Assembly: GCF_002162135.1 (NCBI RefSeq)
Contig: NZ_CP021382.1
Span: forward strand, 4,090,001 to 4,154,000
DNA: 64,000 bases
Source of the DNA: Cellvibrio sp. PSBB006
GTDB lineage: Bacteria; Pseudomonadota; Gammaproteobacteria; Pseudomonadales; Cellvibrionaceae
Direction: 5' to 3'
A program made the position numbers and the translations under genes. Positions 40,008 to 43,134 of the stretch are shown one piece after another; the stretch's first letter is position 1, and each line of letters opens with the position of its first letter. The notes below the pieces were generated by a model, which was given only the letters and a program-made list of their open reading frames with translations, made no database searches and had not been told where the DNA came from.

Positions 40008-40910
40008 TTAGTGACTGCGTTCGATGATATACGCCGAAAGAGCCCGTAACGGCTGAGCCCGTTGATCAAATTCCGTCAGCGCCGCCAGAGCCTGCTGGTG
40101 CAATTCCCGTGCTTTGGCGCGTGCGTTATCCAACCCTAATAAAGACACGTAGGTAGGCTTGTTGCGTGCTATATCTGCGCCTTGCTGCTTGCCGAGAGTC
40201 GCGGTATCGGTAATAACGTCCAGGATGTCGTCCTGCACCTGAAACGCCAGCCCAATAGCGGCGGCATAGGTGCCAAGCGCGTGTAATCGTGGTTCATCTG
40301 CGCCACAGGCAATAGCACCCATGGCAACGCTTGCGCTAATTAATGCACCGGTCTTATGGCGGTGCATGGTTTCCAGTTGCGTTAAATCCAATTGATGGTT
40401 GACCGCAGCCAAATCAATGGATTGACCCAACACCATGCCACGTACCCCGGAGGCGCGGGTCAGCTGTTGCAGCAAGGTAATCTTGCAGGCATCGTCCAGG
40501 TGGGGTGCTTCACTGAGTAACTCAAACGCCAGGGTTTGCAGCGCATCACCGGCGAGGATGGCTGTAGCTTCATCAAAGGCAATATGGCAGGTGGGCTTGC
40601 CGCGCCGCAAATCATCGTCATCCATGGCGGGTAGGTCGTCATGAACGAGGCTGTAGGCATGAATACATTCGAGCGCGCAGGCGATGGTATCGAGAGAAGC
40701 CTGTTGTGCCGGGTTTAACGCGCCGCCGACCGCCAGTCCGCTGGCATAGACCAGGATGGGGCGCACGCGCTTGCCGCCATTGAACAGGCTGTAACGCATG
40801 GCGTCCCGCAAGCGTTCGCCGGCACCCATGGTGACAGGGAGCAGATTCTGCAAGGCGCTGTCGACACGATGGCGGCAATTGGCTACAAACTGACTGAAAT
40901 CGTCACTCAT
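40008..40910 (-). CDS. ispA: Farnesyl diphosphate synthase
   Basis: 300 residues with the first aspartate-rich motif [14 protein letters not shown] (Asp91 onward) and the second in FQVQDDILD. It condenses isopentenyl diphosphate with dimethylallyl and geranyl diphosphates to C15. It overlaps the stop of xseB by 4 bases and is 124 bases ahead of dxs, so precursor synthesis and chain elongation are co-expressed. Confidence 0.97.
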
Positions 40911-41152
40911 TCGTCGTCGCCTTGGGCGTCAAATGGCTCGAGGTTGATAACGCCCTGATTTTCCACCAATTTCTGTACCTGTTGCTCGGCGGCCGCCAGC
41001 CGTGCCTGGCAATCCCGTGTTAATTGGATGCCGGTTTCGAACGCTTTGAGGGACTCTTCCAGTGTCATGTCGCCCTGTTCCATCTTGTTAACCAGGGTTT
41101 CCAGCGCATTAAGGGACTGCTCAAAGTCTGCGCCTTTCTTTTTTACTGCCAT
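40907..41152 (-). CDS. xseB: Exodeoxyribonuclease VII small subunit
   Basis: 81 residues from the ATG at 41152, preceded by a weak ribosome-binding site; a longer frame to 41314 has no homology. It shows the family pattern [32 protein letters not shown] and a short coiled coil. The small subunit binds several-fold to XseA and makes active exonuclease VII, which degrades single-stranded DNA. First gene of the xseB-ispA-dxs operon. Confidence 0.96.
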
Positions 41153-41304: not shown

Positions 41305-41322
41305 TGTGAGACATATCCTACA
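41305..41322 (+). promoter_or_regulatory. GacA-type upstream activating palindrome
   Basis: TGTGAGACATATCCTACA, an 18-base element that differs from the GacA site TGTAAG-N6-CTTACA at one position in each arm with identical 6-base spacing. It lies about 65 bases before the predicted start of the small RNA. Confidence 0.65.
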
Positions 41323-41379
41323 AAACTCTCCGCCAATGCCCACTGGCGCCTGACGTGCCGTTCAACAATAATGGCACCT

Positions 41380-41511
41380 GTTACGGACGCATACACACGG
41401 ACCTGTGTGGCAAGGATCAACAGGAGTTGCGCCATATATCAGCCTAAGGTAGGGCTCCCATCCTGTAAGACACAAACCCTCGCTGCCCCCCGCAGCGGGG
41501 GTTTATTTTTA
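41380..41511 (+). ncRNA. Candidate RsmY/RsmZ-like CsrA-binding small RNA
   Basis: About 130 bases with no reading frame. Four GGA motifs lie at 41385, 41399, 41414 and 41423. The second is in the loop of a CACAC/GTGTG hairpin and the fourth is an AGGA tetraloop on a CAAC/GTTG stem, the exact presentation that CsrA/RsmA proteins bind. A strong terminator closes it at 41474-41511, and a GacA-like site and a weak -10 (AATAAT at 41367) precede it. In pseudomonads such RNAs sequester RsmA when the GacS/GacA system is active. The 5' end is a prediction; no sequence-level family match could be tested. Confidence 0.68.
41474..41511 (+). terminator. Intrinsic terminator of the small RNA
   Basis: A 12-bp stem (AAACCCTCGCTG / CAGCGGGGGTTT, one T-G pair) around a C-rich loop and followed by TTTATTTTT. 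No protein gene on this strand ends before it, which argues that it ends an RNA gene. Confidence 0.9.
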
Positions 41512-41749: not shown

Positions 41750-42883
41750 ATGTACAGCAAGCTGGAATCGTTGCGCGGTGTTGCGGCGTGTCTTGTCTTA
41801 CTTTTCCATTCTCATTTTATTGTTGGAACCAAAAGCCTCGATTTTGTTAAAAACAGTTATCTGTTTGTGGATTTCTTTTTTATTTTATCCGGGTTTGTTT
41901 TGACGCTCGCCTATGCCGATAAAATCCGCCAGGGTTTGGCATTTCGTGAATACATCAGCCTGCGGCTCGGCCGAATTTACCCCTTACACTTGTTTATGCT
42001 CCTGGTATGGGTGCCTTATATTTTGGGCAAGCAGTACTTTATCAGTGCGGGTTATGGCGGCGTAGATCAGTTCGAACATAACAACGCCTACAGCTTTGTC
42101 AGTAATCTGTTTTTGGTGCACGCCATGGGGGTGCACGATTATTTGTCGTGGAATCATCCCAGTTGGAGTATCAGTGTAGAGTTTTTTACCTACATTGCGT
42201 TCTTCATTTTGTTGTTAACCCTTGATCGCAGCGGCAGCAGAATCTTTCCCTTGCTGATTATTATTCCCGGTTACGCCTTCCTCTTCAGTGTTAACCCGGC
42301 GGGACAGATGGATGGAACCTATGATTACGGCTTTATTCGCTGTATGTCAGCATTTTATTGCGGCGTGCTCTTGTATCGTTGGAAGGATGAGATTGCGCAG
42401 GGGTTGGCGCGTTTCAATATTCATGCACTGGAAATCGTCGCCGTTGCATTGACGGTGGCTGCGGTGTGTCTTGCGCATCGCGGCGACGGTTATCTTGCGA
42501 TGACATTGGCATCTTTCTGTTTGTTGCTGATGGTATTTGCCAGCCCTATTCATGGTCTTGTCGGGCGGCTATTGGACACGGCGCCGTTGCGCAGTATCGG
42601 ATTGTGGTCCTATTCCATCTACATGACTCATGACATCATTCTCTCGTTCTTTTCCAACCTGTATGAAATCGTGTTTAAGGCCGCCCCCAAAAATCTTGGG
42701 GTCTGGGCCGTGTTGATTAATATTGCCTTGATTCTATTAACCGTTCTGATTTCACGTTTTACCTACCTCTACGTGGAAAAATATTTTCGCGATAAGGTCA
42801 AAGGGCTGGTCAGTCGTAAAACGGATGAATTGCCGGTTCGGACTCCCGTCGGCGACGAAGCTGTTTTGCCACCCTCCAAATGA
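41750..42883 (+). CDS. Acyltransferase family 3 membrane protein (OafA-like)
   Basis: 377 residues with about ten hydrophobic helices. It starts YSKLESLRGVAACLVLLFHS, the signature of acyltransferase 3 proteins, including the His and Arg thought to be catalytic, followed by FFFILSGFVLTL and WSISVEFFTYI. These inner-membrane enzymes O-acetylate cell-surface sugars such as lipopolysaccharide or exopolysaccharide. It lies alone, so its target is unknown. A C-rich terminator 240 bases upstream belongs to the small RNA. Confidence 0.9.
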   Translation: MYSKLESLRGVAACLVLLFHSHFIVGTKSLDFVKNSYLFVDFFFILSGFVLTLAYADKIRQGLAFREYISLRLGRIYPLHLFMLLVWVPYILGKQYFISAGYGGVDQFEHNNAYSFVSNLFLVHAMGVHDYLSWNHPSWSISVEFFTYIAFFILLLTLDRSGSRIFPLLIIIPGYAFLFSVNPAGQMDGTYDYGFIRCMSAFYCGVLLYRWKDEIAQGLARFNIHALEIVAVALTVAAVCLAHRGDGYLAMTLASFCLLLMVFASPIHGLVGRLLDTAPLRSIGLWSYSIYMTHDIILSFFSNLYEIVFKAAPKNLGVWAVLINIALILLTVLISRFTYLYVEKYFRDKVKGLVSRKTDELPVRTPVGDEAVLPPSK

Positions 42884-42970: not shown

Positions 42971-43134
42971 TATCAAGTCAAATGTGACAATCTCATCAAT
43001 GTATAGCTAAAAGATCATAAAACCGCTCAAGGGCGATAGCGTTTGTCATAAAAACGTAGTAAAAGCAGTAGTAGCGTATCGATGTTCGAGTGGTAGTTTC
43101 TGGTTTTGTCCGGTTCTCTACGATGGAGGTGTCG

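Follow-up and report, generated by a model that had tools for sequence, protein, structure and literature searches.

What does Cellvibrio sp. PSBB006 encode between xseB and a nearby acyltransferase gene? The genome of this bacterium is a single contig of 5.26 Mb, and we analysed a stretch of 64,000 nucleotides of it (the window; positions without a prefix refer to it). The minus strand carries an ORF read as dxs, ispA and xseB (Exonuc_VII_S, 40907-41152), the last of which runs divergently from the interval in question; the acyltransferase gene starts on the plus strand at 41750, downstream of it. Direct reading of the plus strand gives, in succession, TGTGAGACATATCCTACA, AATAAT, four GGA motifs and a terminator (Table 1). 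None of the four tested ORFs that overlap the region (48-109 aa) has a Pfam match at E 0.1. A first-pass annotation had proposed here a Gac-controlled small RNA of the RsmY/RsmZ type; its four GGAs in a non-coding stretch and its strong terminator at the end of that stretch are both borne out.

Table 1. Features of the predicted small RNA locus, in window coordinates.
Feature	Position	Strand	Basis
GacA-type upstream activating site TGTGAGACATATCCTACA	41305..41322	+	83-100% identity in 18/18 Cellvibrio loci selected by promoter pattern
-10 box AATAAT	41367..41372	+	Sequence; AATAATG belongs to the pattern present in 18/21 genus genomes
Predicted small RNA gene, about 131 nt, ends inferred	41379..41510	+	Model R3 match and conserved layout
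GGA 1, in 5' leader, outside any conserved hairpin	41385..41387	+	
Hairpin CACAC-GGACCT-GTGTG presenting GGA 2	41394..41409	+	Stem 41394-41398 with 41405-41409; GGA 2 starts at 41399
GGA 3, linker	41414..41416	+	
GGA 4 in CAAC-AGGA-GTTG	41418..41429	+	Stem 41418-41421 with 41426-41429; GGA starts at 41423; stem without counterpart in relatives
Small third hairpin AGCC...GGCT	41441..41456	+	Fold of window RNA; 3-pair counterpart in 12 relatives
Box CATCCTGT ahead of terminator, ATCCTGT invariant	41459..41466	+	
Intrinsic terminator with T-run	41474..41510	+	13-pair stem at 41474-41504; counterpart in 12 relatives

Each half of the 18-base element has one mismatch to TGTAAG-N6-CTTACA. The palindrome with GacA spacing that had been claimed for it is present and conserved, but it is an imperfect one, with complementary bases at six of nine position pairs. 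The -10 box begins 44 bases behind the 18-mer, and transcription would start at about 41379-41380, as deduced from this box. A covariance model of the RNA alone (R3, see below), whose training set included the window sequence, matches 41378-41470 with an E value of 1.6e-12. The inferred RNA folds better than its dinucleotide shuffles (z -2.44; 5 of 200 shuffles as good); we think that the terminator largely accounts for this.

How much of this could be chance? The half-site pattern has exactly one exact match in the window, and at two mismatches or fewer it occurs at three sites where 2.42 are expected. The 18-mer alone is therefore weak evidence and gains its weight through being conserved. 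Four GGAs in the core of the window RNA are reached by two of 300 dinucleotide shuffles, and the GGA enrichment of single sequences is modest across loci (p 0.007 to 0.36). Throughout the own genome, 18-mers with three mismatches or fewer number six, versus two for the reversed pattern. One of the six precedes a ComEA-like gene (TIGR00426, 74.2 bits): the near-consensus GacA-type site TGTAAGACATCTCCTACA (C1:649014-649031, plus strand; L031:1501-1518) ends 114 bases before it, and this gene is a possible direct target of GacA other than an RNA.

A DNA similarity search matched 15 of 37 genomes, all of the same genus, and the similarity covered the 18-mer and promoter and rarely the RNA. By our reading thirteen of these matches are the short-RNA unit, the one in G005 an isolated 18-mer and that in G011 a chance piece. 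A pattern made of the 18-mer and AATAATG, with any gap of 38-52 bases between them (total lengths of 63-77 allowed), finds one locus each in 18 of the 21 genus genomes. From the first base of the 18-mer to the end of AATAATG all 18 loci measure 69 bases. Model R1, which comprises the promoter and the first half of the RNA, adds G005 and G006, so that the unit is present in 20 of 21 Cellvibrio genomes. No copy of the short RNA was detected in G008 (79% complete), where a weak R1 match belongs to the long RNA described below. In 19 of the 20 genomes the unit lies beside xseB: xseB and ispA adjoin it in 17 of the 18 promoter-selected loci and in both genus loci added by R1. In the exception, G015, the RNA is there but no xseB lies within 1.5 kb of it. 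There an HNH-endonuclease-like ORF follows the RNA, and by our reading the window holds a similar one at 43090; G015 therefore probably carries the same locus with its other flank replaced. In mixtus-like loci (L003, L007, L011, L012, L038, L042, L046 and L050) a block like TGTCGCATATTTCAT...CAACTT behind the terminator looks conserved; it was not seen in the window. That the 18-mer and promoter belong to xseB or to the acyltransferase gene, with the GGA stretch as a leader, would agree with an 18-mer lying between xseB and the RNA and with an acyltransferase gene following on the same strand, yet this is very improbable, given that the terminator stands between the RNA and the acyltransferase gene, that no acyltransferase was found in about 1.5 kb searched downstream at the other 17 loci, that the 18-mer keeps a fixed distance to the -10 box and a varying one to xseB, and that G015 retains the RNA away from xseB.

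The letters of the RNA body are hardly conserved. In global alignment the window shares 57-75% identity with each relative, and shuffled controls reach a mean of 60.6% and a maximum of 75.8%, so that the similarity does not exceed that of the controls. Comparison with relatives was also where the first-pass reading could have come to grief: while these letters diverge, the number and spacing of the GGAs, one hairpin with a GGA loop and the distance from site to -10 box are kept. Exactly four GGAs occur in 17 of the 18 promoter-selected loci and three in the remaining one; altogether the 18 cores hold 71 GGA versus 9 TCC. Behind AATAATG the GGAs stand at offsets of exactly 10, 23, 40 and 50 in eight of the 18 loci and within a few bases of these in nine more.

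All 17 four-GGA sequences place GGA 2 in the loop of a hairpin, on stems of 5-9 pairs with a mean of 6.53, versus 3.27 in shuffles (none of 2000 as high). For GGA 1, 3 and 4 the stems in the same 17 sequences do not rise above shuffles (405, 1562 and 1381 of 2000 as high). Of the two GGA hairpins annotated at first, the one with a CACAC/GTGTG stem is therefore the conserved element; the AGGA tetraloop on CAAC/GTTG does exist in the window but found no counterpart among the relatives. RNAalifold on a wider alignment of 31 sequences returned zero pairs, a result that we attribute to misalignment in this poor alignment, and pairs were therefore counted again on a smaller set that leaves out the window itself, namely the 12 of 18 genus sequences with a good alignment. 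Seven pairs changed on both sides there, a number reached by none of 500 shuffles, and five of the seven belong to the GGA-2 stem. When the pairing partner is slid by 1-3 bases, pairing falls from 94.8% to 27-48%. Stem variants of the GGA-2 hairpin in relatives include GTCGC/GCGAC and AGCACTC/GAGTGCT. The counterpart of the third hairpin has 97.2% of its cells paired and hardly varies, and that of the terminator 97.7%. As a separate observation, the loci of genus g3 (L109-L111, L187-L191 and L193-L195) carry a GGA in the loop of the terminator hairpin, possibly as an extra CsrA site.

Within the RNA body, letter conservation is highest in the AUCCUGU box. ATCCTGT is found in 18 of 18 promoter-selected loci and CATCCTGT in 15 of them; in 14 loci ATCCTGT sits 32-39 bases ahead of the T-run and in the other four 50-54. 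Such an invariant box is what a small RNA acting mainly by base pairing, with its GGAs incidental, might be expected to show. We give this antisense explanation hardly any credence, as GGA number and spacing are kept where the body diverges and compensating changes preserve the GGA loop. A double-acting RNA, which would sponge CsrA and in addition use its box to pair with CsrA-occupied mRNA sites or to gate its own GGAs, is unlikely, if somewhat less so. In the own genome the box reads CAUCCUGU, which is exactly antisense to ACAGGAU(G), the core of the CsrA consensus. Pairing of the extended box with the RNA's own GGAs does not exceed shuffles (62 of 500 reach it).

Does the RNA occur without its promoter being part of the search? 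For model R3 the RNA bodies of 31 loci were used, with promoter letters excluded. At a threshold of E 0.01 it matches 100 of 144 family genomes. Across the order it matches 17 of 390 genomes at E 0.001, and 16 of these belong to the family; the sole match outside it (L196) looks like a chance match and has no GacA-type site. In total 41 R3 loci were read, 30 from the family search and 11 from the order-wide one. A GacA-type site had to score 11 or more out of 12 by a rule that we wrote after seeing the training loci. Eighteen of the 20 family loci from genomes outside the training set have such a site 66-82 bases upstream, with no equal-scoring site elsewhere in the locus. Each of the two, RNA and promoter, thus corroborates the other, since a model without promoter letters leads to the GacA-type site in 18 of 20 cases. 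The other two loci (L175 and L186, genus g4) have a conserved RNA body and no recognisable GacA-type site within the 100 upstream bases searched; control of the RNA may differ there. Some genomes hold more than one copy: in each of G080, G088, G089 and G090 two short-RNA copies lie about 250-500 bases apart, and L086 has a second copy upstream.

Model R1 also picked up longer GGA-rich loci. From the first 145 bases of 13 of them, eight from Cellvibrio and none from the own genome, model R2 was built; it matches 21 of 21 genus genomes with a best E value of 3.4e-13 or better in each. The own copy (L137, C1:5208186-5208330, minus strand; E 3.5e-24 with R2) is located between ORFs read as trxB and cpoB. 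Its first 250 bases contain 12 GGA and no TCC and therefore no ATCCTGT box. The long RNA shares the GacA-type promoter layout of the short one (R2), and R2 matches the short RNA as well, at weaker scores. The long RNA is CsrB-like; loci for it in relatives are L093-L107 and L112, with several copies in some genomes.

For the RNA to belong to a Gac/Csr circuit the genome should encode the proteins, and it likely does encode gacS, gacA and csrA. The csrA gene (L036), which adjoins an ORF read as aspartate kinase, scores 120 bits versus a cut-off of 73. A second csrA-like ORF of 52 aa (L037, C1:4202171-4202329) exceeds the Pfam cut-off and reaches 52.5 bits versus 73 for NCBIfam; its neighbours are ORFs read as AlkB-like and DUF262-like, and it may belong to a mobile island. 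We named gacA and gacS by best hit and domains, gacA also by its uvrC neighbourhood, both scoring below the curated NCBIfam cut-offs. The gacA gene (L060), beside uvrC and an ORF read as pgsA, has 276.4 bits against a cut-off of 280. The gacS candidate (C1:5096615-5099314) matches BarA over residues 2-891 with 773.6 bits (cut-off 890; next best 442), and its domains are cache, HAMP, HisKA, HATPase, receiver and Hpt. As a route to gacS the TorS family proved to be the wrong model, unusable with 65 kinase matches, and BarA was used instead; an 896-aa kinase ORF near 2959 kb (L151) was set aside, as the BarA match scores far higher. The available part of the genome paper on Teredinibacter turnerae names GacS, GacA and two CsrA homologues and does not contain the term small RNA (PMC2699552).

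Our analysis argues strongly that a free-standing gene for a small RNA, part of the Gac/Rsm (BarA/UvrY-Csr) circuit, occupies 41305-41510 and encodes a putative CsrA sponge; we hold this to be highly probable from comparative sequence evidence. This explanation is carried by an anatomy that is conserved, stem changes that compensate one another, a GacA-type site that occurs together with the RNA, and the likely presence of gacS, gacA and csrA; the RsmY/RsmZ-type reading of the first-pass annotation is supported by them. As to transcription, dependence on GacA, CsrA binding and downstream effect, we infer the following course. Phosphorylated GacA would bind the 18-mer at about -75 and activate a sigma-70 promoter, from which an RNA of about 131 nt would be made, ending at the terminator. 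The GGA motifs, of which one sits in the conserved hairpin loop and the others in linkers, would bind CsrA dimers and pull CsrA off its mRNAs, and genes repressed by CsrA would be released.

Simple similarity annotation had been expected to miss such an RNA; but the Rfam Csr/Rsm covariance models do not match here even weakly either, and this counts against the first-pass reading. At gathering score no Rfam family matches in the window; between 41100 and 41700 a threshold of E 10 brings up ten families, all unrelated, and no Csr/Rsm model; and at E 5 the Csr/Rsm models match none of four relatives. RsmZ, RsmX, CsrB and CsrC, the Csr/Rsm members of Rfam besides RsmY, thus gave no covariance-model match in these searches. 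Nor was there any Csr/Rsm match in the long loci L137, L121, L125 and L129; the weak hits near the RNAs were all to unrelated families. In the open-licence literature searched (titles and the starts of abstracts) no such RNA is described for the Cellvibrio group. Kulkarni and others reportedly presented a genome-wide predictor of CsrA-regulating RNAs in 2006, and it is possible that a predictor of this type has already proposed such an RNA in a relative. What we have is very probably a new, family-wide RNA of the known CsrA-sponge kind, judged by its sequence features and by its absence from Rfam and the searched literature. In the Cellvibrio family, whose bacteria are studied for polysaccharide degradation, it is likely the RNA component of the Gac/Csr circuit. 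With R3 covering 100 of 144 family genomes, and the Rfam Csr/Rsm models none of the window and eight further loci tested, direct tests of whether Gac/Csr controls degradation genes in this family are now possible.

How does the RNA compare with known systems? RsmZ and RsmX of Pseudomonas and CsrB and CsrC of enterobacteria are controlled by GacA/UvrY and sequester CsrA, and CsrB is much longer than the Cellvibrio short RNA. The latter resembles them in having several GGAs, and its proposed mechanism is theirs, GacA/UvrY control and CsrA sequestration (PMC4353343, PMC2375449). A single GGA is insufficient to sequester RsmA (PMC2375449). The closest likeness is to RsmY of Pseudomonas, and the RNA could be a true orthologue of it whose sequence has drifted too far to be recognised. 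This would refine our explanation and not oppose it; we consider it a real but tentative possibility, less probable than its opposite. The RsmY model RF00195 (cut-off 57 bits) passes in four of 145 order genomes. It has no match in the own region at E 10 and none in the own genome at E 0.001, and R3 in turn finds none of the four RsmY loci (L113-L116) at E 10 with default filters. As the models fail in either direction, sequence homology to RsmY is not demonstrated and the Cellvibrio short RNA cannot be filed in that family. The two also differ in GGA number, with four here and seven or eight in the RsmY loci L113-L116, and in their box, ATCCTGT here and GTCTGC in RsmY; the Cellvibrio RNA lies beside xseB, and no shared neighbour genes have been shown. 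RsmY and RsmZ of P. fluorescens SS101 have eight GGAs each (PMC4353343). Yet the layout is similar. In P. aeruginosa the upstream activating site is TGTAAG-N6-CTTACA and lies at -75 for rsmY and at -196 for rsmZ (PMC4950607), which sets rsmZ apart from the Cellvibrio RNA, whose site precedes the inferred start by about 75 bases. Both RsmY and the Cellvibrio RNA carry GGA 1 in the 5' leader and further GGAs in linkers, present GGA 2 in the loop of a short hairpin and have a conserved box near the terminator. The distance from the start of the GacA site to the first GGA is 78-82 bases in the four RsmY loci and 77-81 in 31 Cellvibrio-family loci, and that from GGA 1 to GGA 2 is 12-13 bases in RsmY and mostly 13-16 in the Cellvibrio family (outliers L048 and L109-L111).
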